Origin: Candidatus Angelobacter sp. Gp1-AA117
GTDB taxonomy: Bacteria; Acidobacteriota; Terriglobia; Terriglobales; Acidobacteriaceae
Assembly: GCA_003223515.1 (NCBI GenBank)
Contig: QHVI01000141.1
Span: forward strand, 1 to 33,340
DNA length: 33,340 nt
Direction of reading: 5' to 3'
The notes under the pieces were generated by a model. That model saw only the letters and a list, made by a program, of their open reading frames with translations, searched no databases and had not been told where the DNA came from. Position 1 is the stretch's first letter. Each line of letters begins with the position of its first letter. The position numbers and the translations under genes are program-made. This document shows positions 6,504 to 30,390 of the stretch, piece by piece.

Positions 6504-6692
6504 TGTGGACGGGGTTCACACCTCGGTGATTCAGGTATTCAGCTTTTCAAACTGAAGACCATGGCTGACAATATAAACCACAACCCCATCTCAGCGACTT
6601 CTGCTAAGACACCGATGGAAATTCTTATTGGCAGCAGAATTTTTTCTCTTTGAGATTTCTGCCCTCAGTCGAGGGATGGCCAATCTCAAGAG

Positions 6693-8942: not shown

Positions 8943-9109
8943 CCCGGACTTTAATCCGGGGATTAAGTGAAATAAAAGCAGCAGCGTTTTCGCGCAGGTG
9001 GAAGAGCGGGCTTGATGCCTGAGCCAGCGAAGCTGGCGAGATTCTTCCAGCCCACAGCGCAAGCTGTGGGTAAACGTAAGATAAGAAATCCGAGCCCGCG
9101 AACGCGGGC
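8943..9109 (+). repeat. Array of four short GC hairpins between the mutase and racemase genes
   Basis: Four separate palindromes lie in 167 bases. They are CCCGGA/TCCGGG (8943-8960), GCCAGC/GCTGGC with a GAA loop (9023-9037), CCCACAGC/GCTGTGGG closing a GCAA tetraloop (9051-9070), and GCCCGC/GCGGGC (9094-9109). The spacer has no gene. The structures could attenuate or stabilise mRNA between operon genes, or be mobile palindromic repeats. Confidence 0.6.
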
Positions 9110-9128
9110 GACATATTTGCGCAATAGC

Positions 9129-9854
9129 ATGAAGAACACACACCGGCAAGAAATCTGGGGCATCCTGGGCGGCATGGGACCGCTCGCCTCTGCTGAATTT
9201 GTGCACACCATCTACCAGGAAACCGTCCGGGGCACCGACCAGAATTCTCCAGCGGTGATTCTGCTTTCTGATTCCTCCATTCCTGATCGCACAGAATATT
9301 TGCTGACTGGCCGGGAAGACGAGTTGCTGGAATTTTTTTCCAACAGCATAGGTCAACTGGTTTCCATGGGAGCCACCCGCATCGTGATTGCCTGCTTTAC
9401 CATCCATCTGCTGATTCCAAGATTGCCGGAAAGCTGGCAGGAGAAGATCATCTCTCTGGTAGATCTGGCCATTGAATCTGTGCTCCAGAGTAAACGCAGG
9501 CATCTTCTTCTCTGCTCGACTGGAACAAAAAAAATGGGATTGTTTCAGAGCCATCCATTGTGGCAAAAAGCGCAGAATCAGATCGTGGTGCCTGATGACC
9601 ATGACCAGGCGCTGATTCACAAGATGATTTACGAAATCAAGAACAATGAGCAGGATGCGCACTACATAGAGTTCACTGAGAGCCTGCTGGCCAAATATGG
9701 CGTGGATTCCTACCTGGCCGGTTGCAGTGAAATACATATTCTTGCCAAGCAGCATGAACGCCTGCGGGGACGCGCCCGGCACGAATTCTGCATCGATCCT
9801 TTGAGCCGGATTGTGTCGTTCATGTCGCCGGTAGCGGCAGGAGCGGTTTCTTAG
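9129..9854 (+). CDS. Aspartate/glutamate racemase family protein
   Basis: This PLP-independent two-cysteine racemase would invert the alpha carbon of an acidic amino acid, here plausibly aspartate or 3-methylaspartate. The N-terminus has the family start WGILGGMGPLAS (10-21). The two catalytic cysteines are in ACFTIH (Cys89) and AGCSEIH (Cys199). The first motif is usually CNT, so the Asn-to-Phe change is unusual. The length of 241 aa is normal. I choose the ATG at 9129; the open frame continues upstream to 9012, but those residues are translated from the hairpin array. It lies six bases before the first NRPS. In microcystin clusters the racemase McyF plays a comparable role, which supports a D-amino acid supply function. 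Confidence 0.85.
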   Translation: MKNTHRQEIWGILGGMGPLASAEFVHTIYQETVRGTDQNSPAVILLSDSSIPDRTEYLLTGREDELLEFFSNSIGQLVSMGATRIVIACFTIHLLIPRLPESWQEKIISLVDLAIESVLQSKRRHLLLCSTGTKKMGLFQSHPLWQKAQNQIVVPDDHDQALIHKMIYEIKNNEQDAHYIEFTESLLAKYGVDSYLAGCSEIHILAKQHERLRGRARHEFCIDPLSRIVSFMSPVAAGAVS

Positions 9855-12800: not shown

Positions 12801-14951
12801 GCCCTGCAGAATGTGCCGCCTTCCTCCTTGGATTTTGGTAAAGCCACGCTGTCTCCTGTGGCTGTGGACAGTGGGACAGCAAAATTCGACCTTTGGGTGC
12901 CACTGGTGGAAACACCCATCGGGCTGCAGGGTGTCATCCAGTACAGCACAGATCTGTTTGAGCCCGGCACCATCCACCGGATGATCAGCCATATTCAGCA
13001 TCTTTTATCTGCGGTCGTGAGTTCGCCCACGCAACCCATCTCCACTTTGTCACTCCTGAGCCCTGCCGAGCGCCGCCAGCTAGTGGAGGAATTCAGGCGA
13101 GGCGAGCACCACCAGTGCCTGCACCAGTTATTTGCGCACCACGCGCGTAGAGCGCCCGATGCCGTGGCTGTAGCCTGGCGCAGACGCGAGCTGCGCTATG
13201 GAGAGCTGGATTCGCAATCCAACCGCCTGGCCCGTTACCTGCAAGCTCAGGGCGTACAACCGGAAACCTGCATCGGCATCGCCATGGAGCGCTCTCCGGA
13301 GATGATCGTCGCCCAGCTTGGAGTTCTCAAGTCGGGCGCAGCCTATGTCATGCTCGATCTCTCCCATCCTCAGGCGCGGCTCGAATACATGATCAGGGAT
13401 TCGAACATCCAGGTTCTGCTGACCGCAAGCGAATTGAAGCAGCAATTCACGCAGCATGGCCTACGGGCTGTGTGTCTGGATTCTGATTGGGATGCCATCG
13501 CCGCTCACAGCGACGCGCCGGTGAGATCTCTCACCATGCCGGAGAGCATAGCCTTTGTCATCTATACCTCAGGGTCTTCAGGGAAACCCAAGGGCAGCAT
13601 GATCACGCATCAGGCTGTGGCCGGAATGATTTTGCGTTCCAACACCGTGAGCCTGCTGAGTACCGACCGCCTCTCTTTTGTCAATAATGCATCTTTTGAC
13701 GTTTCTACCTTTGATATTTACGGAGCCTTGCTGAACGGCGGATGCATAGTGGTCTTCGATAAAGAAACCATCCTGAACCCGGCCGAGCTTGCCCGCGGCT
13801 TTATCGATGAGAAAGTGACGGTGGCTTTCATCGCCACTCCCATTTTTAATCAGTTGGCAGCAGTGGCTCCGAATTGCTTCTCGGCTTTTCGATACGTTGT
13901 ATTCGGTGGAGAAGCTGCTGACATTCAGGCCGTGCGCCGGGTCTTGCAGGAAGAGCCGCCCCAGCACCTTATCAACGGCTATGGGCCTACGGAAGCAACC
14001 ACCTATTGCACCTCATTCCGTATCTCGAGAGTCGAACCGGAGGCTGATAATATTCCGATTGGAAAGCCGCTTTCCACTACCGAAGCCCTGGTTCTCGATA
14101 GCTCCATGGAATTGGTGCCGGTGGGTGTCTTTGGCGAGCTGTATGTTGGCGGGCGTGCACTGGCGCGTGGCTACATCAACCGGCCAGACCTCACTGCGGA
14201 GCGCTTCGTGCCACATCCATACAGCCAGCCCGGCGGCGAACGTCTTTATCGCACAGGTGACAAGGTGCGCTGGCTTGCTGACGCCAATCTCGAATTCCGT
14301 GGGCGAATCGATTCCCAGGTGAAAATCCGCGGCTATCGCATTGAGCTCAGCGAAATCGAAATAGTCTTGACGGAACAGGCGGGCGTAAAGCAGGCAGCGG
14401 TCATTGTTCGCGAAGATCAGCCCGGCGTGAAGCAGATCGTCGCCTATATCGTGGGTGGAGCAGAAACGAAAACCGAAGACTTGCGCGACGCCTTGAAACG
14501 CAGGCTGCCGGAATACATGGTGCCCTCTACGTTTGTGGCCCTTGAGGCGCTGCCGCTAACTCCCCATGGAAAGCTCGATCGCAAGGCCCTTCCTGCGCCC
14601 GATCGCTCCTCTGGACAGGAGTATGTCGCCCCGCGAAATAAGACAGAAGAAGACCTGGCCCGGATTTGGGCTGAAGTTCTGGGGCTGCCGAAGGTGGGCG
14701 TAGAAGACAACTTCTTTGAGCTGGGCGGCCATTCCTTGCTGGCCACCCAGGTCATCGCCCGGGCCCAGGACGCCTTCCAGAAAAGCCTGCCTGTGCGTAA
14801 GCTATTCGAAACCCCGACTATCTCTGGATTGGCGAAATTGATTGAGAGCTTGTCTGAAACACCAACTACCGGAAGCGCACCACCTCCGGTCATACCTGCG
14901 ATCAGGCGCGTGAATCGCGCCTCGGCTACGACTTCCGGAAAGAAAGATTAA
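9861..14951 (+). CDS. Non-ribosomal peptide synthetase, modules 1-2 (A-PCP-C-A-PCP)
   Basis: The 1696-aa protein starts with a loading A domain and no condensation domain, so it should begin the chain. A1 (about 25-520) has FFTSGSTGKPKG near 169, FDAFLRDMF near 214 and YGTSETT near 313. PCP1 has GGHS with Ser572. The C domain (about 632-1065) has an intact HHIVSDAW at 764-771. A2 (about 1080-1585) has YTSGSSGKPKG near 1235 and FDVSTFD near 1280. PCP2 has GGHS with Ser1625, and a tail follows. Codes read by eye are DARHIAMMAK for A1 and DVFFVGGTYK for A2. The DARH start matches my recollection of the microcystin D-methylaspartate code. A2 resembles codes for small or branched hydrophobic residues but is unassigned. 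There is no epimerase domain, in keeping with a free racemase upstream. It would hand its chain to the next gene, 30 bases downstream. Confidence 0.95.
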   Translation: MSSVTTEPRLAGTAGRPSFVHEMFCQMARQTPHAVAIEGPRGHLRYTELDQSSSHIAALLVSNGVRKSDLVGIFTHDRQFMIECVLGILKAGAAFVPLSPRIPADRLDSMLAECTPKWAIVTDDLKESFSSLSVSKSIHLLSLPVEPDNREVDFVPVEMEGDDLSYIFFTSGSTGKPKGIAGRLKGIDHFIRWQKETCGLGPESRVSQLMSPMFDAFLRDMFVALCSGGAICIPPDYDILLDGARMARWLDEQRITMTHMVPSVFRLMIMHRDPAMRLQHLQNVILAGEPLLPADVKAWYEVVGKQGGRLINMYGTSETTMAKFAYIIQEEDQFRSSIPAGKPIKGAKGLVLDDEGRVCPPGLVGEIYIRTSYRSLGYYQRPELTREVFVPNPFGKGKDPLDVVHKTGDLGRVLEDGNFEVIGRRDNQIKIRGQRVELGEIEAALSECAGVAQVAVVAKEIGNGEKRLVAWLVPKAGAQLDANELRTSLKKRLMEYMIPTGWGLLEKLPLTSNGKVDREALQQMEPKMGGWTRGSREARNPTEEMLCGIWEEVLNVRPIGVQDNFFELGGHSLLATQVISRIQAAFSVELPIQAVFEAPTVLAMSQRIEQAKESGDGIRIPPIRRTKREGTAPLSYAQQRLWFIDQLEPNQATYNIPVAVRITGPLDVPALQRTLQEIVNRHETLRTRFQSVGGHPQQIVEESVAIELQSFDLSVMGQQEREAEAQRLAFAEAHTPFDLAVAPLLRLRMLKLGAEEHVLVMTMHHIVSDAWSVSILIREVSELYRAFIAGRPSPLPELPIQYSDYSAWQREWLKDDVLVRQLDYWKTQLADAPPLELPSDHPRPAARTYRGATLPLSLPLQLTDKLKELSRKQGATLYMSLLAAFQMLLSRYSGQPEITVGTPIAGRRQPETEGLIGFFINTLVMRSDLSGDPDFLALLQSVKRVTLEAFANQDLPFEKLVEALQPDRHLSRAPLFQVAFALQNVPPSSLDFGKATLSPVAVDSGTAKFDLWVPLVETPIGLQGVIQYSTDLFEPGTIHRMISHIQHLLSAVVSSPTQPISTLSLLSPAERRQLVEEFRRGEHHQCLHQLFAHHARRAPDAVAVAWRRRELRYGELDSQSNRLARYLQAQGVQPETCIGIAMERSPEMIVAQLGVLKSGAAYVMLDLSHPQARLEYMIRDSNIQVLLTASELKQQFTQHGLRAVCLDSDWDAIAAHSDAPVRSLTMPESIAFVIYTSGSSGKPKGSMITHQAVAGMILRSNTVSLLSTDRLSFVNNASFDVSTFDIYGALLNGGCIVVFDKETILNPAELARGFIDEKVTVAFIATPIFNQLAAVAPNCFSAFRYVVFGGEAADIQAVRRVLQEEPPQHLINGYGPTEATTYCTSFRISRVEPEADNIPIGKPLSTTEALVLDSSMELVPVGVFGELYVGGRALARGYINRPDLTAERFVPHPYSQPGGERLYRTGDKVRWLADANLEFRGRIDSQVKIRGYRIELSEIEIVLTEQAGVKQAAVIVREDQPGVKQIVAYIVGGAETKTEDLRDALKRRLPEYMVPSTFVALEALPLTPHGKLDRKALPAPDRSSGQEYVAPRNKTEEDLARIWAEVLGLPKVGVEDNFFELGGHSLLATQVIARAQDAFQKSLPVRKLFETPTISGLAKLIESLSETPTTGSAPPPVIPAIRRVNRASATTSGKKD

Positions 14952-14981
14952 TCCGGCGCAGCCCTTGCAGAAAGAAGAAGT

Positions 14982-17900
14982 ATGACACCGTCGTCTTCCG
15001 TCAACAGTCCCGCAACCATGGCAGCCGTCAAGACGGTCTTCCACTTCCCTGCCTCTTACGCGCAGCAAAGACTGTGGTTCCTCGATCAGATGACGCCCGG
15101 AAGCGGCGCCTACAACATACCCTCGGCGGTGCACATAGAGGGGCCGCTGAATGTTGATGCTTTGCACAGGACGTTTCAGGAAATTGCCCGGCGGCATGAA
15201 ACCTTGCGCACCACATTTGCTGTGGTAAAGGGTGAACTCCAGCAGGTGATTGCTGAAGAGATTCCACTGGAACTTCCCCTGGAGGAACTGCGCCTTTCCC
15301 CTGCCGACCCCTGGGAGTCACAAGTCCGAGTACACGTGCAGAAAGAAGCCTGGGCGCCCTTTGATCTGGCTCAGGGGCCGCTCATCCGCCTGAAATTATT
15401 GCGGTTGCATGAACAGGATCACGTGCTGGTCATCGCCGTACACCACACCATCTACGATGGATGGTCCCTGGGGGTTCTGATACGGGAACTCTCTGTGCTG
15501 TACGCGGCCTTCTGCGAGGGAAAGCCTTCGCCACTGCCGGAGCTACCCATTCAATATGTGGACTATACCGACTGGCAACGCCAGTGGTTGAGCGGCCAGG
15601 TTCTGGATCAGCAGATTCATTATTGGAAGCAGCAACTGGCGGGAATCGAACCTCTGGAACTGCATACGGACCGGCCCCGGCCACTGGTGACTACCTATCG
15701 CGGCGACGTGGAAAAGGTCTCCATTTCCCGCGAAGTTACAGAACAATTGCGCAAGCTCAGCCAGCGCCATGACGCCACCATGTATATGGCTCTACTGGCT
15801 GCATTTCAGATGTTATTGGCACGGTACAGCGGGCAGCAGGATATCGCCGTCGGATGCCCGGTGGCTGGCCGCCCGCGGCCTGAGATGGAAGCCCTGATCG
15901 GTGTCTTCCTGAACACCCTGGTATTGCGGACCCAGGTGATTGGGAACGTGAGTTTTACCGGGTTGCTGAAGCAGGTCAGGGAAATCACATTACAGGCCTA
16001 TGCCCACCAGGATGTGCCCTTCGAGCGATTGGTTGAAGCTCTTCAACCTGAAAGAGACCTGGCCCGCACGCCGCTGTTTCAGGTCATGTTCGTCTTTCAG
16101 AATGTGCCATCTTCTTCAGGACTGCGACTGGGAACAGCGCGTCTGACGCCCTTCAACATTATCAACACCAATGCAAAATTCGACCTTACCCTTACTTTGA
16201 TCGACACAGAATCCGGGGTGAAGGGCACATTGGGGTACAGCACAGACCTGTTTGAAGCTGCCACCATGCAACGCCTGGTCGGTCACTTTGAGGCGCTGCT
16301 GGGCAGCATGGCTGCCGCTCCCGAGCAACAGCTTTCTCATCTCTCGTTGTTGACCGCAGCGGAAAAACAACTGCTTCTGGTGGACTGGAACCAGACCGCA
16401 GTGCCATTGCCGTTCAGTGAAGGCAAATACCTGCTTGATTTGTTGGAGGAGCAGGTGGCGCAAAAACCGCAGGCTGAAGCCGTGGTGCATGGAGCCCAGT
16501 CGCTCACCTATCGCGAACTGAACCACCAGGCGAACCAACTGGCACGCTACCTGAAAAAAGTGGGTGTGGGGCCCGAAGTTCGTGCCGGCATTTGCGTAGG
16601 GCGCAGCTTGAAGATGATCGTCGGCCTTCTGGGAATCATGAAAGCCGGCGGTGTTTATGTTCCGCTTGACCCTGAGTTTCCTCCGGAACGCGTGCGTTAC
16701 ATGCTGGAAGATTCGCAGGCATCGGTACTGCTGACTGAAAAGAAGCTGCTGTCACAGTTGCCTCCTTTTTCCGGACGCGTGATCAGTCTGGACGAGCAAT
16801 GGCCGGAGATTGAGCGTGAGAGTGGTGACAACCTGAAACGGGTGACATTTGGAGATAACCTCGCCTACCTGATCTACACTTCGGGCTCCACCGGGCGGCC
16901 CAAGGGAGTTGCCATCCGCCATAGCAGTACAGCGATTCTGGCCGCCTGGGCACGCAATGCCTATAGCGATGAAGAGTTACACGGGGTTCTGGCCTCCACC
17001 TCTATTTGCTTTGACGTTTCGATCTTTGAAATCTTCGTCACCTTGAGCTGTGGCGGCAGGATGCTTCTCGTCGGCAATGCCCTAGACCTGGCGGGAATGA
17101 CCAACCCCGATCAGGTGAAAGTAGTCACCACCGTGCCCTCAGCCATGCGCGAACTGGCCCGCATGAAAGCTATCCCGGAGTCGGTCCGGGTGATTGGCCT
17201 GGGCGGAGAGGCTGTGCCTGTGGGCCTTGCTCCCGAAATCTATGCGGCCAGTAAGGCGGAACGCATCCTCAATCTCTACGGCCCCTCGGAAGATACGACC
17301 TACACAACTTGCGCGCTGCTGCCCCGCACGGAGGAGCCGCTGAGAGTAGCTGTAGGACGCCCGGTACCGTTGACTCAAGTCTATGTTCTCGATGCGGATC
17401 TGAATCCTGTGCCTCTCGGAATTCCCGGAGAGTTGTATATCGGCGGCGCCGGGCTGGCGCGTGGCTACTGGAATCATCCTGAATTGACAGCCGGGCGTTT
17501 TGTGCCCAATCCTCTCAGCCAGCAAGGCGGAGAGCGCCTGTACCGCACTGGAGACCTGGTGCGCTACCGCGCCGACGGCAATCTGGAATTCCTGCGCCGC
17601 CTCGATCACCAGGTGAAGATTCGCGGACACCGGATTGAATTGGGAGAAATCGAGGCGGTACTGGAGGAACAGCCCGGCATCCGGCAGGCCGTGGTGCTCG
17701 CCCGTGAAGATGACCCGGGTGAAAAATGGCTGGTGGCTTATGTGGTGGCGGAGGGCGCCGTCAGCGCAGATGAACTGCAACAGGCATTGAAGCAGCGCAT
17801 TCCCGAATACATGGTGCCCGGCGCCTTCGTCATGCTGGACGAGCTGCCGCTGACGCCCAATGGAAAAATCAATCGCAAGGCGTTACCCACTCCGGCCAGA

Positions 17901-20900
17901 GGCCGCGCCGGCGCGAAGGCAGCTTACGTCGCTCCGGGCACCCCGGAAGAAGAGGCGCTGGCCCAGATCTGGTGTTCCGTCCTGCGGCTGGACCGCGTAG
18001 GAGTGCAGGACAACTTTTTTGATGTGGGCGGCCACTCGCTTCTGGCTACCCAACTGCTGGCGCGCATAAGAGATGTTTTCAACGTAGAGATTCCGTTGCT
18101 CCAGGTCTTTGAACATCCAACCATTGCCGGCCTGGCCGCCATCATCAGCAATCCCTCTTCTGAGAACTCTTTGCCCCAGCTCATGGCTGTGCCTGCGGCG
18201 GCTTCTCCGAAATCACCGGACCACTTCGACAACAATGGTGCGCAGCCTGCGGCCGTCAGGGAGTCCTTCTCTTACCCTGCCTCTTTTGCCCAGCAGCGGC
18301 TCTGGCTGATTGACCGGCTCGAACCTGGCCTGCCCACTTACAACGTAACTTTTGCCGTGCGCATTCAAGGGCCGCTGGATGCAGGCATTTTGCAAAAGAG
18401 CTTCCAGGAAATCGTCAACCGCCATGAGAGCCTGCGAACTACCTTCATGGCGGATGGCGGCGAACCCCAGCAGGTAATTCATGCCGAATTGGAAGTAAAG
18501 CTGCCGCTTTCTGACCTGCGTTCGGTCCCGCCCGAACAGCGGGAGGCAGAAGCCACCCGACGCATTGAAAAAGAAGCGCGTTCGCCCTTTGACCTGGTTC
18601 ACGGCCCGCTATTGCGGGTGGAATTGCTTCAACTGGATGATCACGATCATGTGGTGACGATGAATGTCCATCACATCGTCGCCGACGCCTGGTCCATTGG
18701 CGTCCTGGTGCGCGAACTCTCTCTGCTTTACAACGCATTCAGTGCCGGGAAGCCTTCGCCGCTGCCGGACCTGCCGATTCAATATGTGGATTACACTGCC
18801 TGGCAACGCGAGTGGTTGCAGGGAGAAGTGCTGGAAGAGCAGATTCGTTACTGGAAACAGCAGCTCGCCGGAGTTGCCCCACTGGATCTCCCGTCAGACT
18901 GGCCGCGTCCTCAGGTCGTGACCTATCAGGGAACTACCAGGACATTCACCATTCCCGTAGGCCTCGTGGACAAGCTGAAAGAACTTGGCCGCCAGCAGGG
19001 CGCAACGCTGTATATGACCTTGCTGGCAGCATTTCAGGCGTTGCTCTATCGCTACAGCGGACAGCAGGACATCGCCGTGGGATCGCCGATTGCCGGACGG
19101 CGGCGGCAGGAAATGGAGCCTCTGATCGGCTTCTTCGTCAACACCCTGGTTTTGCGGGTGGATGTTTCCGGAGAGACAGGCTTCATGCAACTGCTGAAGC
19201 AGGTAAGGGAAACAACTCTGGAAGCCTATGCCCACCAGGATGCGCCCTTTGAAAGGCTGGTGGAGATCATTCAGCCCGAACGCGACCTCTCCCGCACGCC
19301 TCTGTTCCAGGTGATGTTTGTCCTGCAAAATACGCCCCCGTGGGCGCTGGAGTTTGGTTCCGCCAAACTCTCCTCGTTTCCTTTTGTCACCGGAACGGCA
19401 AAGTTCAATCTCACATTAATTCTCAGCGAGAACAATTCAGAATTACAGGGAGGATTTGGTTACAGCAGCGATCTCTTCGACCAGGACACGATCGAGCGCA
19501 TGATTCAGCATTTCCAGAAACTGCTGGGCGGCATTGTCGCCGCGCCCCACCGTAATCTGGGCGAACTGCCGTTGCTCACGCGGGAAGAAGAAAAACAGGT
19601 CATTGAAGAGTGGAACCTTACTGGCAAGTCATATCGGCAGGAATACTGGGTCCATGAGATGTTCGCGGAACAAGCCGCAAAAGCCCCCCATGACATAGCT
19701 GTAACTTATGAATCGGAGCAGTGGACGTATGCGGAATTGGATCAAAGGTCGAACCAGTTGGCCCATTACCTGATTGCCCACGGCGTGCGCCCGGATGACC
19801 GAGTTGGTCTGTGCCTGAAGCGCAGTCTCAGGATGATTGTGGGAATCACTCAATGCAGTGTGGAAGCGCCCCGCTTAAAGATGGACGGCGAGAACCTTGC
19901 TTACGTCATCTATACATCTGGCTCTACGGGAAAGCCCAAAGGCGTTGCCCTGCCTCATCGTGTGCTGTCCAACCTGATCCAGTGGCAGGTTGAGAGCTTT
20001 GCCTTTGTCCTGAAGAATACTTTGCAATTCACATCGCTGAGTTTTGATGTCTCTGTGCAGGAAATCTTCAGCACGCTGGCCGCCGGCGGAGTTCTCCATT
20101 TGATCGATGATGATAAGCGCAAAGACATTCCCCAGCTTCGGCATCTCATCAGTCAGAAGCAGGTTGAACGCATCTTCCTGCCCTTCGTGGCTCTCGATTA
20201 CCTCAGCAAGGCTTATCTGGAAGAGGACTCACCGGAATGTCCTCTGCGCGAGGTGCTCTGTGGCGGTGAACAGTTACAGATTACTCCTGCCATCATGGAG
20301 TTGTTCCAGCGCGTGAAGAACGGGGTGCTGGTAAACCATTACGGCCCCAGTGAGACCCATCTTTCCCATTCCTATACGCTTCGCGGGGATAGCCGGAAAT
20401 GGCCAAAGCTGCCTCCCATCGGCAAGGCTGTCGCCAACGCCCAACTCTATGTCCTGAATCAATGGATGCAAACGGCCCCTGTAGGCATTCCCGGTGAGCT
20501 TTTTATCTCCGGGACGCAAGTGGCGCGGGGCTATTTGAACAGACCTGACTTGACCGCGGAAAGATTCCTGCCCAATCCCTTCAGCCACACTGCCGGAAAC
20601 CGTCTGTACAAAACTGGTGATATCGTCCGCTGGCGCAAAGATGGCGAGATGGAATTCCTGGGACGCGCCGATAGCCAAGTAAAAATTCGCGGCTACCGCA
20701 TCGAGCTTGGGGAGATCGAAACCGTGCTGCGCGAGCATCCGGCCGTGGAGCAGGCAGTAGTGATCGTTCGCGAAGACGAGTTGAAACAGAAGCGGCTGAT
20801 TGCCTACCTGGTGCTGCGCCAGCAGATCGCCACCAGTGAATTGCGTGAGGAACTCCAAGGCCGCCTGCCCGAATACATGGTGCCTTCGGTCTTCATGGTG

Positions 20901-23900
20901 CTGGAGAAAATCCCGCTTACCCCGAACGGCAAAACCGACCGCCGCGCACTGCCTGCGCCTCCAACCGATCGCACCGCTTCCCAACAAACAGGCGTTGCGC
21001 CGCGCACACCCACGGAAGAATTGCTGGCACAGATATGGTCGGCGGTGCTGGGCCGCACCCAGATCAGCATGGAAGACGACTTCTTTGCTATCGGCGGACA
21101 TTCCCTGCTGGCTACCCAGGTTACAGCGCGCATAAAAAATATTTTCAAAGCGGAAGTGCCATTGCGCCGCATGTTTGAGGCCCCCACCATCGCTAAGCTG
21201 GCAAAAGTTCTCGACCAGTTGACGGCCTCTGCTCCGGAACAGATATCGCAACCGCTGCGTCGCATTCCCACGGATGAGGCTTTCAGCGTTCCTCTCTCCT
21301 ATGCACAGCAGCGCCTCTGGTTTGTCGACCAGCTCACGCCTGGGAACACGGTCTACAACATGCCGGTGTTTGTCAGGATTGCCGGCCCTCTCAACCTGCA
21401 AGCTCTGCAGTTGACGCTGCAGGAGATCGTCCGCCGGCACGAATCATTGCGCACCCGCTTTGCCATTGTCGATGGCGAGCCACGGCAGATTGTCTACTCG
21501 GCTGCTGATCTCGATTTGCCGCTGCTGGATTTCTCCTCTTTGCCGGAAGAACAGCGCCAGGCAGAAGCCCGGAAAATTGCGGTGGCGGAAGCACAATCGC
21601 CTTTCAATCTCGAGAGCGGCCCGCTCTTCCGCGTAAAGCTTGTGCGGCTGGCCGGCGATGACCACGTGCTGGTCACCAACATGCACCACATCATCTCCGA
21701 TGGCTGGTCCATCGGTGTGTTGATGCGTGAAGTATCAGTGCTCTATCAGGCATTCAGCGAAGGACGTCCTTCCCCACTGCCTGAACTCGAGATCCAATAC
21801 CCCGATTACAGCGCGTGGCAGCGGGACTGGCTGCGGGGCGAAGTCCTGGATCAGCAGATCAACTATTGGAGAGAGCAACTCTCGGGCGTTGCTCCGCTGG
21901 AGTTGCCCCTCGACCGGCCCCGGCCTGCGGTGATGACCTTCCGTGGTGCTGCTGAAGCGGTGACCGTTCCGGCTGCCACAACCGAGAAGCTGCGCAAACT
22001 CGGCCAGCGCCATGGCGCAACTTTATATATGACGCTGCTGGCCGCATTCCAGGTATTGCTCTCCCGCTACAGCGGGCAGCAGGATATTGCTGTAGGTTCA
22101 CCGATAGCCGGGCGGCAGCGTCCCGAATTGGAACCATTAATTGGGTTCTTTATCAATACCCTGGTATTACGCTCGCGGCTTTCCGACGAATTGAGCTTCA
22201 CCCAGTTGCTGAACCAGGTGCGCGAGACCACGTTGCAGGCGTACGCGCATCAGGATGTGCCCTTCGAAAAACTGGTGGAAGCGATTCATCCGGAAAGAAA
22301 CCTCGACCGCACGCCGCTCTTCCAGGTCATGTTCATCCTGCAGAATGCACCCCAATCCGGATTGCAGTTGGGGTCCGCCCGGCTGCTGCCCTTCAATATC
22401 GGTGGCAACACCGCAAAATTTGACCTCACGCTCTCCTTCACCGAGGTCGATTCCGGCCTCTCAGGCGGCTTGGGATACAGCACTGACCTATTCGAAGCAG
22501 CCACCGTCCAGCGCATGATTGACCATTACTGCATGTTGCTGGAAAGCGTTGCCGCGGATGCCGAGCGGGAGCTTGCCGCTCTTCAGTTGTTGCCTGAAGC
22601 TGAGAAGCAACTGCTGCTGGTGGAGTGGAACAACACTGCTGTGCCTTTGCCCTTCGGCGAAGGTAAATACCTGCTCGATCTGATGGAAGAGCAGGTGGAG
22701 CAAAGGCCGGAAGCTGAAGCCGTGGTGCACGGAACGCAATCGCTTACCTATCGCGAGTTGAACCACCGGGCCAACCAACTGGCGCGCTATCTGAAGAAGC
22801 TGGGCGTTGGGCCTGAAGTTCGCGTAGGGATCTGTGTGGAGCGCAGCTTCAGGATGATCTTCGGCCTGCTGGGAATCATGAAGGCGGGCGGGATTTATGT
22901 GCCGCTTGATCCTGAGTATCCGTCCGAGCGCGTCTGTTACATGCTGGAAGATTCGCAGGCATCAGTTCTGTTGACCGAACAGAAACTCCTGTCCCAGTTA
23001 CCTCCTTATTCAGGACGGGTGATCAGTCTGGACGAGCAATGGCCGGAGATCGAACGCGAGAGTGGTGACAACCTGTCACGGACAACCTTCGGGGACAATC
23101 TGGCTTATCTGATCTACACTTCCGGTTCCACCGGCCGGCCCAAGGGAGTTGCCATCCGCCATAGCAGTGCCGCGATTCTGGTGGCCTGGACACGCCATAT
23201 CTATAGCGATGAAGAGTTGCATGGAGTTCTTGCCTCTACCTCGATCTGCTTCGATGTCTCCATCTTTGAAATCTTCATGACCTTGAGCTGCGGCGGGAGA
23301 ATGCTGCTGGTCGGGAATGCTCTCGATCTGGCGGAAATGACCAATCCGGATCAGGTGAAAGTAGTGACCACCGTGCCCTCGGCCATGCGCGAACTGGCGC
23401 GCATGAAGGCCATTCCCAACTCGGTGCGCGCGATTGGCCTGGGTGGAGAGGCCGTGCCCGTAGGCTTGGCTCCCGAACTTTATGAGGCCAGCCAGGCAGA
23501 GCGGGTGCTCAATCTCTACGGACCTTCCGAAGATACCACCTACACGACCTGCGCCTTGTTGACGCGTACTCACGAGCCGCTGAGAGTAGCCGTAGGACGG
23601 CCAGTGCCTTATACGCGGCTCTATGTTCTCGATAGGGCGATGAATCCTGTGCCTCTCGGAATTCCCGGCGAGCTATATATCGGCGGCTCGGGGCTGGCCC
23701 GCGGCTACTGGAACCATCCTGAACTCACGGCAGAACGGTTCGTGCCCAATTCTCTAAGTCAACAAGGTGGAGAGCGTCTCTACCGCACCGGAGACCTGGT
23801 GCGCTATCGCGCCGATGGCAATCTGGAATTCCTGAGCCGTCTCGATCACCAGGTAAAAATTCGCGGACACCGTATTGAATTGGGAGAAATCGAGGCGGTG

Positions 23901-25292
23901 CTGGAGGAACAACCCAACATCAGGCAGGCCGTAGTTCTGGCCCGCGAAGATGAGCCCGGCGAAAAGCGCCTGGTGGCTTATGTAGTGGCTGAAGCTGAAG
24001 CCACCGTGAGCGCCGATGAACTGCAAGCTGCCTTGAAGCAGCGCATTCCCGAATACATGGTGCCCGGCGCCTTCGTCATGCTGGAAGAAATGCCGCTCAC
24101 GCCTAATGGAAAGATCAACCGCAAGGCCCTGCCTGCTCCGGAAAAGGGCCGTGCTGCTGCCCGCGCAGCCTATGTCGCCCCGCGCACTGCTGAGGAAGAA
24201 ACTCTGGCACAAATATGGTGCGAAGCCCTGGGACTCGAGCGTGTAGGAGTAGAAGATAACTTCTTCGATCTAGGAGGACACTCGCTCCTCGCGGTCCGAC
24301 TCCGAGCGATGCTGCGGAATCGCCTGAACTACAACGTGACCCTCGTCGATCTCTTCCAGAACCTGACCATCGCCAGAATGGCACAGCGAATGGGACAGGC
24401 TGCGGAACACCTGCCGCACCAGATATTGATTCCTATTCAACCTCAGGGAACCGCGAGTCCGATCTTCTGCATACATCCGATTGGCGGGCAGGTGTTTTGT
24501 TACAACCTGTTGTCCCGGGAACTGGGAACCGATCGCCCCTTCTACGGCCTGCAGGCAACTGCTGCAGAGTCAGCCGGCACCATTGAAGAGATGGCCTCCA
24601 TTTACGTCCGGGAGATTCGTAAGGTCCAGCAGCACGGCCCCTATTTGCTCTCTGGCTGGTCCATGGGCGGCCTCATTGCATTCGAAATGGCGCGCCAGTT
24701 GAAAGGCGAGGGTGAATCCATTGCGCTGCTGGCGCTGTTTGATACTTATCCGCCTTCCCGCAATCGTTTACCAAATTACGAAAGCACAAACCAGTCGCCG
24801 GTTCTTATTCGCTTCGCCCTGGAGATGGCCCGCTCTCTGGGCAGGGACATCACCGCTCTGCAATCGCAGTTCGCACAGCTTTCGCCGGAAGAACAGAAAG
24901 CGCTGGTGCTCAACCAACTCGTCGAGGCCGAAGTGCTGCCCCAGAACAACGCCAATGCCGAAGCAGAATTCACGCACATGCTGGATATCTACGCCCGTAA
25001 CCTGCATGCCATGGAAATCTACTCTCCTGCCCCGCAGGACCAGAGCCTCGTGCTCTTTAAAGCTTCAGCAAGAGACAATCCGGAAGAAATAGCCGCAGAA
25101 TGGAACGCAACCGCGAAACAAGGTGTAGACCTCCACGTAATCAACGGCAATCACTACACCATCCTCCAGCGCCCCAACGTGGCAACATTGGCAGACGGCC
25201 TGAAGAAAAGCATGGCTACGGCACAACCGGCGAACACCCCTCACCACAAAGGGCACAAAGGTTTCACGAAGGCCACAGAGGAAAGCTGTTGA
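14982..25292 (+). CDS. Non-ribosomal peptide synthetase, modules 3-5 with terminal thioesterase (C-A-PCP-C-A*-PCP-C-A-PCP-TE)
   Basis: The 3436-aa terminal synthetase has three elongation modules and a release domain. C domains carry HHTIYDGW (154), HHIVADAW (1230) and HHIISDGW (2235), all with HHxxxD intact. PCP serines are 1019, 2041 and 3101. The first and third A domains (YTSGSTG at 632 and 2712) share one code, about DVFTGGLTYK, and are near-duplicates. The middle A domain (A*) goes from LRMIVGI directly to TQCSVEAP and [13 protein letters not shown] near 1617-1640. It lacks about 65-70 residues including core A2 (LKAGGxYVPLDP), while its code region (about DVQFLGHLSK, resembling proline codes in DVQ..H) remains. 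The TE (about 3148-3420) has GWSMGG (Ser3227), a likely Asp in LFDTYPP and His3391, predicting hydrolysis or cyclisation. The last 15 residues are translated from a dispersed repeat. Confidence 0.95.
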   Translation: MTPSSSVNSPATMAAVKTVFHFPASYAQQRLWFLDQMTPGSGAYNIPSAVHIEGPLNVDALHRTFQEIARRHETLRTTFAVVKGELQQVIAEEIPLELPLEELRLSPADPWESQVRVHVQKEAWAPFDLAQGPLIRLKLLRLHEQDHVLVIAVHHTIYDGWSLGVLIRELSVLYAAFCEGKPSPLPELPIQYVDYTDWQRQWLSGQVLDQQIHYWKQQLAGIEPLELHTDRPRPLVTTYRGDVEKVSISREVTEQLRKLSQRHDATMYMALLAAFQMLLARYSGQQDIAVGCPVAGRPRPEMEALIGVFLNTLVLRTQVIGNVSFTGLLKQVREITLQAYAHQDVPFERLVEALQPERDLARTPLFQVMFVFQNVPSSSGLRLGTARLTPFNIINTNAKFDLTLTLIDTESGVKGTLGYSTDLFEAATMQRLVGHFEALLGSMAAAPEQQLSHLSLLTAAEKQLLLVDWNQTAVPLPFSEGKYLLDLLEEQVAQKPQAEAVVHGAQSLTYRELNHQANQLARYLKKVGVGPEVRAGICVGRSLKMIVGLLGIMKAGGVYVPLDPEFPPERVRYMLEDSQASVLLTEKKLLSQLPPFSGRVISLDEQWPEIERESGDNLKRVTFGDNLAYLIYTSGSTGRPKGVAIRHSSTAILAAWARNAYSDEELHGVLASTSICFDVSIFEIFVTLSCGGRMLLVGNALDLAGMTNPDQVKVVTTVPSAMRELARMKAIPESVRVIGLGGEAVPVGLAPEIYAASKAERILNLYGPSEDTTYTTCALLPRTEEPLRVAVGRPVPLTQVYVLDADLNPVPLGIPGELYIGGAGLARGYWNHPELTAGRFVPNPLSQQGGERLYRTGDLVRYRADGNLEFLRRLDHQVKIRGHRIELGEIEAVLEEQPGIRQAVVLAREDDPGEKWLVAYVVAEGAVSADELQQALKQRIPEYMVPGAFVMLDELPLTPNGKINRKALPTPARGRAGAKAAYVAPGTPEEEALAQIWCSVLRLDRVGVQDNFFDVGGHSLLATQLLARIRDVFNVEIPLLQVFEHPTIAGLAAIISNPSSENSLPQLMAVPAAASPKSPDHFDNNGAQPAAVRESFSYPASFAQQRLWLIDRLEPGLPTYNVTFAVRIQGPLDAGILQKSFQEIVNRHESLRTTFMADGGEPQQVIHAELEVKLPLSDLRSVPPEQREAEATRRIEKEARSPFDLVHGPLLRVELLQLDDHDHVVTMNVHHIVADAWSIGVLVRELSLLYNAFSAGKPSPLPDLPIQYVDYTAWQREWLQGEVLEEQIRYWKQQLAGVAPLDLPSDWPRPQVVTYQGTTRTFTIPVGLVDKLKELGRQQGATLYMTLLAAFQALLYRYSGQQDIAVGSPIAGRRRQEMEPLIGFFVNTLVLRVDVSGETGFMQLLKQVRETTLEAYAHQDAPFERLVEIIQPERDLSRTPLFQVMFVLQNTPPWALEFGSAKLSSFPFVTGTAKFNLTLILSENNSELQGGFGYSSDLFDQDTIERMIQHFQKLLGGIVAAPHRNLGELPLLTREEEKQVIEEWNLTGKSYRQEYWVHEMFAEQAAKAPHDIAVTYESEQWTYAELDQRSNQLAHYLIAHGVRPDDRVGLCLKRSLRMIVGITQCSVEAPRLKMDGENLAYVIYTSGSTGKPKGVALPHRVLSNLIQWQVESFAFVLKNTLQFTSLSFDVSVQEIFSTLAAGGVLHLIDDDKRKDIPQLRHLISQKQVERIFLPFVALDYLSKAYLEEDSPECPLREVLCGGEQLQITPAIMELFQRVKNGVLVNHYGPSETHLSHSYTLRGDSRKWPKLPPIGKAVANAQLYVLNQWMQTAPVGIPGELFISGTQVARGYLNRPDLTAERFLPNPFSHTAGNRLYKTGDIVRWRKDGEMEFLGRADSQVKIRGYRIELGEIETVLREHPAVEQAVVIVREDELKQKRLIAYLVLRQQIATSELREELQGRLPEYMVPSVFMVLEKIPLTPNGKTDRRALPAPPTDRTASQQTGVAPRTPTEELLAQIWSAVLGRTQISMEDDFFAIGGHSLLATQVTARIKNIFKAEVPLRRMFEAPTIAKLAKVLDQLTASAPEQISQPLRRIPTDEAFSVPLSYAQQRLWFVDQLTPGNTVYNMPVFVRIAGPLNLQALQLTLQEIVRRHESLRTRFAIVDGEPRQIVYSAADLDLPLLDFSSLPEEQRQAEARKIAVAEAQSPFNLESGPLFRVKLVRLAGDDHVLVTNMHHIISDGWSIGVLMREVSVLYQAFSEGRPSPLPELEIQYPDYSAWQRDWLRGEVLDQQINYWREQLSGVAPLELPLDRPRPAVMTFRGAAEAVTVPAATTEKLRKLGQRHGATLYMTLLAAFQVLLSRYSGQQDIAVGSPIAGRQRPELEPLIGFFINTLVLRSRLSDELSFTQLLNQVRETTLQAYAHQDVPFEKLVEAIHPERNLDRTPLFQVMFILQNAPQSGLQLGSARLLPFNIGGNTAKFDLTLSFTEVDSGLSGGLGYSTDLFEAATVQRMIDHYCMLLESVAADAERELAALQLLPEAEKQLLLVEWNNTAVPLPFGEGKYLLDLMEEQVEQRPEAEAVVHGTQSLTYRELNHRANQLARYLKKLGVGPEVRVGICVERSFRMIFGLLGIMKAGGIYVPLDPEYPSERVCYMLEDSQASVLLTEQKLLSQLPPYSGRVISLDEQWPEIERESGDNLSRTTFGDNLAYLIYTSGSTGRPKGVAIRHSSAAILVAWTRHIYSDEELHGVLASTSICFDVSIFEIFMTLSCGGRMLLVGNALDLAEMTNPDQVKVVTTVPSAMRELARMKAIPNSVRAIGLGGEAVPVGLAPELYEASQAERVLNLYGPSEDTTYTTCALLTRTHEPLRVAVGRPVPYTRLYVLDRAMNPVPLGIPGELYIGGSGLARGYWNHPELTAERFVPNSLSQQGGERLYRTGDLVRYRADGNLEFLSRLDHQVKIRGHRIELGEIEAVLEEQPNIRQAVVLAREDEPGEKRLVAYVVAEAEATVSADELQAALKQRIPEYMVPGAFVMLEEMPLTPNGKINRKALPAPEKGRAAARAAYVAPRTAEEETLAQIWCEALGLERVGVEDNFFDLGGHSLLAVRLRAMLRNRLNYNVTLVDLFQNLTIARMAQRMGQAAEHLPHQILIPIQPQGTASPIFCIHPIGGQVFCYNLLSRELGTDRPFYGLQATAAESAGTIEEMASIYVREIRKVQQHGPYLLSGWSMGGLIAFEMARQLKGEGESIALLALFDTYPPSRNRLPNYESTNQSPVLIRFALEMARSLGRDITALQSQFAQLSPEEQKALVLNQLVEAEVLPQNNANAEAEFTHMLDIYARNLHAMEIYSPAPQDQSLVLFKASARDNPEEIAAEWNATAKQGVDLHVINGNHYTILQRPNVATLADGLKKSMATAQPANTPHHKGHKGFTKATEESC
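16360..18045 (+). repeat. Internal duplication, copy A (A-PCP of module 3)
   Basis: About 1.69 kb covering the adenylation and carrier domains of module 3 is closely matched by 22600-24291 (offset about 6240-6246 bases). Long runs of identical sequence are visible, for example around 16780-16810 against 23020-23050. The boundaries are approximate. Confidence 0.8.
22600..24291 (+). repeat. Internal duplication, copy B (A-PCP of module 5)
   Basis: This is the partner of the copy at 16360-18045. The only visible length difference is six bases, giving two extra residues in an EAEATV stretch. The shared specificity code suggests modules 3 and 5 add the same amino acid. Confidence 0.8.
25245..25287 (+). 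repeat. Dispersed A/G-rich repeat, copy 3, forming the NRPS C-terminal tail
   Basis: The repeat (ACCACAAAGGGCACAAAGG, then TTTCACGAAGGCC) lies inside the last codons of the terminal NRPS. It encodes HHKGHKGFTKATEES just before the stop, beyond the end of the thioesterase fold. Confidence 0.75.
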
Positions 25293-26099: not shown

Positions 26100-27314
26100 T
26101 CAAGATGACGTGATAAACCTTGCGGCCACTTCGGTCAATCCCGAAGTGGCCTCATAGAAAGATAGATGATCACCATGCGCTTCCACGTGCAGTGTGGAAT
26201 TTGGTAACAGTGAGGCTACGCGGCGTGAGCCTTCGGGGTGGGCGGTGCTGTCGTCCTGGCTGGTGACTACCAGGGTGCGATGCGAGATGCCGGCCAGCAG
26301 AGGCTCGACGTTGGAAGACATGATGCTGCCGTTGAGCTTGCCGTAGCGGAAGAGCAACTCCGGAGTGGCATAAGGATAAATGATGAGATGAGCCAGGTCG
26401 GCGCGCATGTTCTTGATCATTGCGCCACAGAACAGTTCATGCGTGGATGCCGCTTCGGTGCGTCCGGCGCCCGACATGAGCATGATGTCTTTCAGATTCT
26501 GCTGGTACATGGTTTTGGGCACAGCCGGGCCAAGCTCAAAATCTCCGTACCAGAGGCTCAAGGAAGAGATACGCTCGGGCGAGTTGTGGGCGGCGATGAG
26601 CGCAACAATCGCGCCTCCACACAGCCCCATTACGTGCCCGATTTTTATTCCGTAATGGTCCATCACGGCAAACAGGTCTTTGGCCTGCGCGCCGGTGTCC
26701 CAGGAGGCTGAGTCAACATGGGCGAGTTTGCCGAAGAGGCCACGCGTCTCCCAGGTAATCACGAAGTGATCTTTCGCCAGGAAATCCATCCATGCTTCGG
26801 CGAGCTTTGCCGGCATGCCACAAGCTGTAATCATGATGACAGCCGCTCGGCTGGGATTTCCTGCCGCGTAGGTCTTCAGGGCTACGCCATCAAAGGAAGG
26901 AACGTCAGTGCAGTGAAACCGGTGTTCGAAACTCCGGGAAACCGTGGCCTGGATGATCGGATTGACTTCCGGTGATTGTGATACCTGTTGAAAATCAGCC
27001 GGGACGCAGTCTTGAAGGCGATTACTGACAATCCGCTCAAAGACCGTCACATCATCCAGAACCGCGAACTCCGGCGCGCCGCAATGTCCGGCAATCCTGT
27101 TGAGCAGGTCTTCGAGCGCAATTTCATCGTCTGCGCTGGATTCGCCGCCTTGCGGAAACGGAGCAACACAAACAGGATGAGCCAGAACATCGATCAACGG
27201 CCGCACGGAGAGCACCGCGCGCGTGAGACGAGCGATGGCGTCTGCTTGTACGTCCTCTTTTGAATGTTGCACTGCGGCCGCCGAGTGGTTCGTGTCTGCC
27301 TTATCTGGGAACAA
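26100..27314 (-). CDS. syrC: SyrC-like alpha/beta-hydrolase aminoacyl transferase (chlorothreonyl shuttle)
   Basis: This 404-aa alpha/beta-hydrolase has a Cys nucleophile elbow, GLCGG (Cys232), in place of the usual GxSxG. The acid is probably in TSQDD and the His in HGDHLSF. SyrC of syringomycin biosynthesis has this Cys arrangement and moves 4-chloro-Thr between carrier proteins (SyrB1 to SyrE). The neighbouring halogenase and Thr-activating protein make the same role likely here. The first 100 residues form a variable N-terminal extension. The start is a TTG at 27314: an in-frame TGA lies just upstream, and AGAGG (27323-27327) is eight bases before the TTG. It overlaps the halogenase end by 14 bases, suggesting translational coupling. 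It is the last gene of the minus-strand operon in this window. A hydrolytic proofreading thioesterase is the alternative. Confidence 0.8.
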
Positions 27315-28251
27315 AGGCCTTGCCTCTCATGGTTTGGGTGGCCATGCGGTTGTGCCCGAATTCGTCACGTCCGCAGACCAGCACCGCGCCGTAGTTCTCC
27401 AGGCTCACGCGGCCGCCGTACTCCTCGATTGCGTCGCTATCAGGATAGATTTTCACGCCGGTGGGTACGTAACGCGATGCAAAGCCCATGCGCATCTCCT
27501 CGGTTTTCCCGAGGTGCGGATGCGAAGCATGCATCAGCGTGGACCAAAATATGATGAATTGTCCAGGACGCATGATCATGGAGACCGCCTTCGACTCATC
27601 CGGCTTCCAGTGGGGATCGATCTGCAACTGGCGATAGTCGTAACCGAAAAAGCCCCGGCGCACGCCTTCTTTTTCCATGCTGTTGATCTTGTCGGGATCG
27701 TAATGCATGCGCTTGGTCTCATCGTAAAACATGGTCTTGTGGGTGCCAGGGATGAACTGCAGGCAGGCAGTCTCTTCGTTGGCTTCGGTGAAGGCGGTCC
27801 ACACGGTGATGGTGCCGCCGAAGTGTTCATCTTCCGGCCACAGGATCTGCGGCGTGCCGGAGGCATTGGCAAAGGTGTCCGCCTGGTGCCAGTCGGTGCC
27901 TTCGTCACCAGGATATTTGGGAAAGAATTCTGTACGCCAGCAAAGCACGTTTGGCCCAAGCACGCTGGCCACGCGGTCGACGATCTCAGCGCGGCAAATG
28001 TGCCCGGCAAGGAAATCGTTGTCGAGATGGCGGTCATAGTTGGCGATGTTGGTGGCGCCCGACACGGCTGCTCCATCCTGGTAAATCGCCTTGCTGCGGT
28101 CCAGCAGGAGAAGCCGCTGGCGCTTCCAAATCGCTTTCATTTCGTCCGGCTGGTAAGCGGTAAAGGGGCCGGCGTAGCCGTTGCGATGAAAACCAGCTAG
28201 CTCTTCAGGTGTAAAGGAGAAATTCTGGGTCTGCTGCTGAGCGGTCTGCAT
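27301..28251 (-). CDS. syrB2: Non-heme Fe(II)/2-oxoglutarate halogenase, SyrB2 type (threonine 4-chlorinase)
   Basis: This enzyme would chlorinate the methyl group of carrier-bound L-Thr using Fe(II), 2-oxoglutarate, O2 and chloride. The 316-aa sequence follows SyrB2, as I remember it, almost end to end. It includes [10 protein letters not shown] (68-77), [20 protein letters not shown] (103-122), [10 protein letters not shown] (201-210) and [12 protein letters not shown] (232-243). The facial triad of a hydroxylase (HxD...H) is here HQA (His122, Ala124) with His241. The missing carboxylate opens the iron site for chloride and is the hallmark of these halogenases. Arg260 is in place for 2-oxoglutarate. 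GGGAGG at 28257-28262 lies five bases before the ATG, which overlaps the stop of the A-PCP-PCP gene (TAATG). Its carrier-bound substrate is that neighbour. Confidence 0.95.
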
Positions 28252-30371
28252 TAGGTCCTCCCAAGGACTTGGACTTGAGCCTGATCATGTTGTTGGAGTT
28301 CGGCATCCACACAGCTCGCCAGACGCGACACCGTTGCTTCTTCCACCAGGATGCTGCCGTTCAACGAGAGATTGAAGTGAGCATTGACCCGGGAGAAGAT
28401 GCGAATCAGCGCCAGCGATGTGCCGCCGAGATCAAAAAAGTCGTCTTTTATGCCGATGTTTTTCTTTTGCAGGATGTCTTCCCAGATCTGAGCGATGACC
28501 TGTTCAGTGGGAGTTTTAGAATTGCCGGGCTGTGCAGCCAGTTGTTGGTCGATGCAGGAAGCCAATTGTGAAATCGTGGCTTCTTCTGCCAGGATGCTGC
28601 CATTCAATGAAAGCTTGAAGCGGTCATTCACGCGGGCAAAGATGCGGATCAATGCCAGCGACGTGCCGCCGAGGTCAAAGAAATCATCTCTGGTTCCAAT
28701 GCCGCGCTTTTGCAGGATCTCTTCCCAGATGCCGGTTACCACCTGCTCGGTTGGACTCAGGTTTGCAGAGCCTGCATCGGCAGCGTGCCGCCGCGCTGCC
28801 AGTTCGCGCAGTGCGGCACGGTCTGCTTTGCCATGCGCCGTGAGCGGAATTTCCGGCACGATGAAATAAGAAGAAGGACGCATGTGGAGCGGAAGGTTCT
28901 CCGCCGCCCGCTGGTTAAGATCAGCGGCGATTTTCTCCTCCGCTGCTCCATGGCGCGGCACGACATAGGCGATCAGGCGAATGTCGCCATCGCCATAATC
29001 CTGCGCAGCCACAATCGCGCTCGCCACCTCAGGATGGCTGCCCAGGCAAAGCTCTATCTCGCGCGGCTCAATACGGAAACCACGGACTTTGATCTGATCA
29101 TCAGCGCGGCCAAGATAGTTGAGCTCGCCATTCGGCAGGCGGACAGCGCGGTCACCCGAGCGGTACATGCGGATGCCATTGCGCTGGACGAAACGCTCTG
29201 CGGTAAGCTCCGGCCGGTTCAGGTAGCCGCGCGCCACGCCTGCGCCGGAGACATACATTTCTCCCGGTGTGCCATCAGGCACAGGCTGGCCTTGGCCATC
29301 GAGCAGATGAATCTGCAGATCAGGAATCGGAGTGCCGATTGGACTGGCATCAGGACGGCTGATCTCTTCCCTGCTCAGGCGCTTGTACGTAACATGCACG
29401 GTGGTCTCGGTAATTCCGTACATGTTGATGAGCGCAGGAGACTGATCTCCATAGCGTGCAACCCACGGCTCCAGCAGCCTCACATCCAGGGCTTCACCAC
29501 CGAAGATGATGTAACGCAGAGCAAAGCTGGAAGGAGATGCAAGGCGCATGTCAGCGGCAACAAGCTGGCGAAACGCCGATGGCGTTTGGTTCAAGACTGT
29601 AACTTTTCTTTCGCGCAGAAGAGCATGGAACTGCTCAGGCGAGCGCGTTATCTCTGAAGGCACCATGACCAGCGTGCCGCCATAGAGCAGCGCGCCCCAG
29701 ATTTCCCACACCGAGAAATCAAAGCTGACGGAATGGAACATAGTCCACACGTCATGGTGGGTGAAGCCGAATTTTTCTTCGGTCTGCTGGAAGAGCCGGA
29801 TGACATGGCGATGCTCAACCAGAACTCCCTTGGGAGTGCCGGTAGAGCCGGAGGTGTAGATGACGTAAGCGAGATTGTGATCTGCACAGCCTTCATTCTT
29901 CAGCGCAGCCGAGGGCACCTCCACCCGATTATGCGCAAAAGCGGCGCCCAATGGGGGCCCCGGCGGCTGCGGTACATGAGAAGTTTCTTTATCAACGCAG
30001 ATGATTTTTGCTTTGCAGTTTTGCAGGGAGGTTAACGTTGCTGTTTCGGCAATGATGACAGGGGCTGCGCTGTCTTCACACAGGAACTCGATTCGCTTTG
30101 CCGGGTAGGCAGGATCGATGGGAACATAAGCGCCACCGGCTTTCAGAATAGCCAGCATTCCCACGATCAATTCCGGCTTGCGTTCCAGACAGAGGCCGAC
30201 CAGCACATCAGGACCCACTCCCATGGTTCGTAATTTTCCGGCCAATTGTCCGGCACGATTGTTCAACTCGCCGTAGGTAAGCTGTTCACCTGCGCAGAAG
30301 ACCGCAACCCGGTGCGGGGCTTCCTGCGCCCGCGCCGCGAAGATGGAATGCAAGGTATTGCCGGATAACAT
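28251..30371 (-). CDS. syrB1: Threonine-activating A-PCP-PCP protein (SyrB1-like)
   Basis: The 706-aa stand-alone protein activates L-Thr and holds it for chlorination. The A domain (1-500) has [11 protein letters not shown] near 172, FDFSVWEIW near 216 and [12 protein letters not shown]. The specificity code read by eye is DFWNIGMVHK, the canonical Thr code at all ten positions. Two nearly identical carrier domains follow, each with [17 protein letters not shown]; the serines are 571 and 652. SyrB1 has a single carrier, so the tandem pair is a difference. GGTS replaces the GGHS of the elongation modules, as in other halogenase carriers. Residues about 134-156 ([14 protein letters not shown]...) come from an inserted 68-bp palindromic repeat between cores A2 and A3. 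AAAGGGA (30376-30382) precedes the ATG. It follows the PKS gene by 19 bases. Confidence 0.95.
29904..29971. repeat. 68-bp palindromic repeat inserted in frame in the Thr A domain
   Basis: The repeat is bounded by CGCAGCCG and CGGCTGCG. It matches 31192-31259 at all but about three positions and has the same length. On the minus strand it reads in frame as [21 protein letters not shown]. The interior contains GGCGCCC and GGGGGCCCC, capable of folding. Confidence 0.85.
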
Positions 30372-30390
30372 AAATTCCCTTTGGCCTGAT

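Follow-up and report, generated by a model that had tools for sequence, protein, structure and literature searches.

The stretch of 33,340 nucleotides analysed here (hereafter the window), from contig QHVI01000141.1 of Candidatus Angelobacter sp. Gp1-AA117, carries three adjacent genes, P0001, P0002 and P0003, which very probably form an in-trans loading cassette of the SyrB1-SyrB2-SyrC type making 4-chlorothreonine. Taken jointly with delivery of this residue to some nonribosomal peptide synthetase (NRPS) module deficient in its adenylation (A) domain, the proposal from the sequence is still probable. The new element is the A-deficient module adjoining the cassette; the cassette itself is already known widely. 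In the proposed route P0001 would activate L-Thr and load its tandem thiolation (T) domains, P0002 would chlorinate the carrier-bound Thr at C4 (gamma), and P0003 would take the 4-chlorothreonine onto Cys232, then pass it to an NRPS carrier that lacks an A domain of its own or has a dead one. Thr as substrate and 4-chlorothreonine as product are predicted from the protein families, and chlorination at C4 by P0002 from only its neighbours and its sequence identity.

Genes of the cassette

The three genes form one minus-strand operon. P0001 (28251..30371, minus strand) is a SyrB1-like A-T-T protein with, according to Pfam, an A domain at 28803-30353 and T domains at 28551-28757 and 28308-28517. 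The ten specificity-code residues of the A domain read DFWNIGMVHK, so that P0001 combines a Thr code with a T domain as in SyrB1. This A domain aligns with CytC1 (3vnq) at 369 bits and with 5n9w at 357 bits; the latter entry is titled "Adenylation domain" and we take it to be that of Thr1.

P0002 (27301..28251, minus strand) is a SyrB2-type Fe(II)/2-oxoglutarate halogenase, scoring 527 bits against SyrB2 (2fct), 439 bits against CytC3 (3gja) and 477 bits against the NCBIfam model TIGR01762 "chlorinating enzyme" (cut-off 226). It has HxA instead of HxD/E (His122 and Ala124), the second His (His241) and the 2-oxoglutarate Arg (Arg254). These four residues are kept in the halogenases of all 80 retained relatives. 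A search that took a single genome for each species gave 227 relatives, and the best 80 loci were retained, L008 and L009 being one organism twice. Hydroxylases carry Asp or Glu at the position where halogenases have Ala, and with Ala124 there a reading of P0002 as a hydroxylase was rejected.

P0003 (26100..27314, minus strand) is an alpha/beta-hydrolase (Pfam) with a GLCGG motif and the Cys-Asp-His set of a SyrC-type aminoacyltransferase; Cys232, Asp355 and His383 are unchanged in all 68 SyrC-like proteins aligned. Base 28251 is common to the end of the A-T-T gene and the start of the halogenase gene, and the transferase ORF (open reading frame), which has a TTG start, overlaps the end of the halogenase gene by 14 bases.

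Pfam, TIGR01762, the code and the active-site residues therefore agree with the first-pass annotation, which had placed three genes with these motifs at these positions and described them as overlapping or near one another. The SyrB1-SyrB2-SyrC carrier-bound chemistry that it proposed stands as the best reading. Two other parts of it, the novelty of an occurrence outside Pseudomonas and the view of the neighbouring NRPS as unrelated, need correction, as described below.

A damaged A domain in the neighbouring NRPS

Convergent with the cassette operon runs an NRPS operon of five modules on the plus strand. Its first NRPS gene (9861..14951) encodes A1-T1-C2-A2-T2, where C is a condensation domain, and the second (14982..25292) C3-A3-T3-C4-A4-T4-C5-A5-T5-TE, where TE is a thioesterase. 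A4 (19650..20957, plus strand) is the sole damaged domain among the five A domains. It lacks profile positions 67-136 through a deletion between 19847 and 19872, by which about 70 residues including core motif A2 are gone, the frame and the later motifs being kept. No intact A4 was found in the same genus (9 genomes including the window's own): the best-scoring outside match is 55% identical and a shorter one 63%, with no clear orthologue.

The acceptor expected for a SyrC-type transferase is a carrier whose module has no functional A domain. A4, about 70 residues short, would leave such a carrier in T4 (21003..21212, plus strand), and another candidate is a C-T module on contig C182 of the same genome. 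We tentatively prefer T4 as the acceptor of 4-chlorothreonine, at somewhat less than even confidence. The residue would then be the fourth of a pentapeptide X1-X2-Y-(Cl-Thr)-Y, in which X1 or X2 is probably methylaspartate. This position is proposed because A4 is damaged and because such cassettes elsewhere adjoin carriers with no A domain or with a remnant of one. A3 (16431-17888) and A5 (22671-24137) are 89% identical (433/486) and share the code DVFTGGLTYK; therefore product residues 3 and 5 should match. The 3' end of the NRPS is C-A-T-TE with an intact A5 and not the C-T-TE of SyrE, the cassette contig being incomplete beyond 33340.

The first two A domains have the codes DARHIAMM-K (A1, where one position falls in an alignment gap and was read by eye as A) and DVFFVGGTYK (A2). 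Upstream in the NRPS operon lie a fused glutamate (methylaspartate) mutase S-E (6978..8906, plus strand; B12 motif DCHSVG at residue 16) and an Asp/Glu-type amino acid racemase (9012..9854, plus strand), which ends 6 bases ahead of the NRPS start. Because these genes are in the operon, they suggest methylaspartate as a building block of the peptide. From the adjacent mutase and racemase, and from a presumed methylaspartate A-domain code, we infer that A1 activates this residue; a literature search for that code found no paper.

The first-pass annotation had called this NRPS unrelated to the cassette. It is probably related, since the A domain of module 4 is damaged and the module could be served by the cassette, and since in a second genome of the genus (G106) an A-T/halogenase/SyrC cassette is followed in line, 27 bases on, by an NRPS in which the first A domain resembles A1 in its DARH-type code. 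The start of the G106 NRPS is 47% identical to that of the window over A-T-C, and the DARH start of the code recurs in no other A domain among those listed from the contigs of the window's own genome and from the compared loci.

A-deficient carriers beside cassettes in other organisms

Module 9 of SyrE, in syringomycin biosynthesis, has no A domain according to the accessible part of PMC8949500. In the cyanobacterium Scytonematopsis (L007) a C-(A remnant)-T-TE protein, the remnant covering profile positions 311-493, stands directly ahead of A-T, halogenase and SyrC. At 16 listed loci (the two Sorangium loci L003 and L004, and 14 actinomycete loci) a lone T domain follows SyrC. The 11 of these 16 post-SyrC proteins that were scanned are all FkbM-methyltransferase-T proteins. 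Four of the 11 carry a weak C-terminal A remnant (three at 25-27 bits and one at 24.1, for a cut-off of 24.5), no single stretch of which passes alone. The FkbM-methyltransferase-T protein is the likely acceptor of the shuttled residue at these loci. L022 has an A-less C-T upstream of the cassette, with a divergent C domain.

These cases can be read as a graded series of A loss: no A domain in SyrE, a C-terminal remnant in the cyanobacterial line, scraps around a methyltransferase in Sorangium and actinomycetes, and about 70 missing residues in A4. SyrC-type delivery may drive the loss of the A domain at the acceptor, with the window NRPS caught at an early stage, an idea which we consider doubtful.

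Distribution and phylogeny

Among the 80 kept loci, 61 have the gene order A+T upstream, halogenase, SyrC downstream. A further 11 have A+T with SyrC not found (four of them lying about 0.5 kb or less from where the stretch ends), and the remaining loci have T+SyrC (4/80), A+SyrC (2/80) or neither (2/80). The best A match has the code DFW(N/S)(I/V)GMVHK at 71 of the 80 loci and exactly DFWNIGMVHK at seven. The hosts belong to several phyla and include Sorangium (myxobacteria), Streptomyces and other actinomycetes, cyanobacteria, Kordia and Pseudomonas. With the same order in so many hosts the cassette is widespread, and its occurrence outside Pseudomonas, which the earlier annotation had put forward as novel, was rejected as a novelty on these loci.

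The cassette is nevertheless rare around the window. In its family it was found in 2 of 150 genomes at 1e-60, the own genome and G106, and in its phylum in 1 of 396 genomes at 1e-100, the own genome. A literature search found no report of such a cassette in Acidobacteria by title (partial coverage, supplements excluded). By identity, the closest halogenase among the kept loci is that of L003 (Sorangium cellulosum, 78%); that of L004 is at 76% and that of Pseudomonas L044 at 72%. The window copy has no well-supported sister among the 82 halogenases of a tree, in which the G106 copy falls in a mostly actinomycete clade (support 99/90). From this grouping, the copies of the two members of the genus may have been acquired separately.

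Some loci depart from the common layout. In Kordia jejudonensis (L082) eight T domains in tandem separate the cassette A domain (starting at 6624) from the halogenase. At L046 (8099-10963), in a Pyrinomonadaceae metagenome-assembled genome, a SyrB2-like halogenase (69%) adjoins an A-T with the code DAWQFGLIQK, which looks Gln-like; this halogenase possibly chlorinates a Gln/Glu-type residue. At L055, L073 and L075 halogenase and SyrC adjoin a lone T; no Thr-type A lies alongside, and A domains with the code DIWQST.. lie on the opposite strand.

Other A-deficient modules in the genome

The genome of the window (G000, 6.5 Mb, in which the window is contig C30) is NRPS-rich, with 84 condensation-domain and 24 ketosynthase-family matches. 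Across the stretches taken from each of the 18 contigs that have condensation matches there are 92 A groups. Internal A loss, taken as at least 50 missing profile positions with a gap of at most 20 in the protein, appears in three contigs, C30, C179 and C120. On C112 one A domain has 72 positions missing at its start, and C179 has a further A group with 309 positions missing. The deleted A domains of C179 and C120 look long dead because their P-loop is also ruined.

A SyrB2-like halogenase occurs in two places of the genome, C30 and C179. The second one has 47% identity and the HxA motif, and C179 also carries a distant SyrC-like protein (E 1.6e-9) and the NRPS with the internally deleted A domain. 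Its neighbours (L087-L089) include a stand-alone A domain, a class IV aminotransferase and a homocitrate-synthase-like enzyme. Perhaps another chlorinated amino acid is delivered in trans there. Both halogenase contigs have a damaged A domain, against 2 of the 16 other A-bearing contigs (C112 and C120); the chance of this is about 0.04, calculated by hand and post hoc on small numbers, and was given no weight. The NRPS contig C40, with a SyrC-like protein (see below) and a stand-alone A domain at 52008, perhaps holds a trans-loading system without chlorination.

The ketosynthase gene and a dispersed repeat

Upstream in the cassette operon, P0004 (30391..33243, minus strand) encodes a ketosynthase (KS), a degenerate acyltransferase (AT) and a T domain. 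It ends 19 bases ahead of the A-T-T start and its frame stays open as far as the contig end, so that the operon begins near or beyond 33340. The KS Cys motif is present. The AT motif reads GDRTGE, without the Ser, and much of the AT is gone; with a dead AT, KS-T was rejected as a normal extension module of a polyketide synthase (PKS).

The stretch of P0001 between motifs A2 and A3 is not part of the A fold and belongs to a dispersed palindromic repeat (within 29880..29990, minus strand, in frame). A second copy lies in frame in the degenerate AT of P0004 (31192..31274, minus strand). The repeat, about 85 bases long, was found in 23 places of the genome at E<=0.001 (21 outside the window; 40 of 100 candidates scored), and its folding z is -2.4. 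Of the 21 further copies 20 were fetched, and three (L122, L126 and L138) lie in a frame that is open over the whole 1.4 kb stretch on the strand of the repeat. It is reminiscent of the Rickettsia palindromic elements.

Candidate acceptors and possible fates of the chlorinated residue

Several observations weigh against T4 as the acceptor. The P-loop of A4 is intact, so the loss would be recent or an artefact, and the code is retained as well, which together suggests a recent loss. The deletion could also be an assembly error, because A4 sits between modules whose A3 and A5 are 89% identical, a place where short-read assembly could go wrong. The convergent cassette operon has its upstream part beyond the contig end, behind the KS-T gene, and the acceptor may therefore be off this contig. 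Elsewhere, inspection by eye showed a module with C and a damaged A domain next to the cassette at L007 alone among the 80 loci, most loci show no acceptor NRPS module in the stretch covered, and the G106 halogenase is not the sister of that of the window. Within the own genome, C182 has a true A-less C-T module and C120 and C112 have damaged A domains, none of them with a halogenase, and on C40 the SyrC-like protein (32503-34503, 3.4e-23) comes without a halogenase and with no deleted A domain in the stretch taken. An acceptor elsewhere is thus a serious possibility, ranking close behind T4: KS-T, A-T-T, halogenase and SyrC would close a PKS/NRPS cluster whose upstream part extends beyond 33340, its acceptor being for example the A-less C-T of C182, and the NRPS at 9861-25292 would be separate. 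The orientation of the operon and the 19 bases between KS-T and A-T-T fit this, as does the wealth of condensation and KS-family matches in the genome; on C182 the last domains of a minus-strand gene are C-T, and the gene after it runs off the contig. But no sequence joins C182 to the window contig: a search for a link from the window end at 33340 to another contig matched only itself. The terminal T domain of C182 (75 residues) gave 45 matches in G106, at most 46% identical, with no clear orthologue. Moreover it is the convergent NRPS with the damaged A domain that adjoins the cassette, and the G106 cassette is in line with a DARH-type NRPS.

Two further alternatives concern the product itself. 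The cluster may be decaying with nothing made, as the A4 deletion, the much shortened AT without its Ser and the in-frame repeats inside P0001 and P0004 could indicate. We consider this unlikely, since the reading frames of the NRPS (9861-25292) and of the cassette plus KS-T (26100-33243) are uninterrupted and the catalytic residues of halogenase and transferase are kept. It is more unlikely still that 4-chlorothreonine or a small derivative of it leaves the carrier as a free compound instead of being built into a peptide. Several actinomycete and Sorangium cassettes have no C domain in the stretch covered (e.g. L003, L004 and L011), and the accessible part of PMC8949500 cites a 4-chlorothreonine pathway for Streptomyces OH-5093. 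The window cassette, in contrast, adjoins a five-module NRPS with a TE, and neither a stand-alone thioesterase nor an FkbM-T was found by Pfam among the 16 window ORFs scanned, the contig ending at 33340.

Comparison with known systems

Genomes of the acidobacterial genus Candidatus Angelobacter are 6 to 7 Mb and rich in NRPS genes, and none of their clusters could be linked to a characterised one, as far as the accessible part of PMC9723581 reports. Their size and NRPS content fit the first-pass annotation, which held the organism to be probably an acidobacterium. No 16S rRNA gene was found by a search that was positive in only 9 of 14 control genomes, and a search for Acido-1 RNA gave no signal in any control. 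The present analysis places a chlorothreonine kit in this genus; the peptide that it predicts has five residues, with chlorothreonine as the fourth and methylaspartate probably among the others. Where a damaged or missing A domain lies close to a SyrC-type cassette, a pre-modified amino acid may enter, which ordinary collinear prediction would miss. If SyrC-type delivery does drive the loss of the A domain at its acceptor, the position of the halogenated residue in the product could be predicted from a damaged A domain next to a halogenase/SyrC cassette.

The window resembles SyrB1-SyrB2-SyrC of Pseudomonas syringae (syringomycin) in its three functions, the Thr code, the HxA halogenase and the Cys transferase. 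It differs by its tandem T domains, which some Pseudomonas cassettes also have, and by the KS-T gene upstream; the window NRPS has five modules, and the A-deficient one is internal with a truncated A domain, not a terminal C-T-TE. With CytC1/CytC3 and Thr1 of Streptomyces it shares matches of the A domain (CytC1 and 5n9w) and of the halogenase (CytC3). Here the A domain, both T domains, the halogenase and the transferase are in one operon beside a multimodular NRPS. The Sorangium cellulosum loci L003 and L004 have A-T and SyrC in the same order as the window, but an FkbM-methyltransferase-T gene comes after SyrC, and the 21 kb covered showed neither a C nor a KS domain. In albicidin biosynthesis a separate, stand-alone A-T likewise substitutes for a defective, dead A domain within the line, according to the accessible part of PMC8949500, whereas in the window a halogenase and a shuttle transferase accompany the A-T, and the A defect is a deletion.

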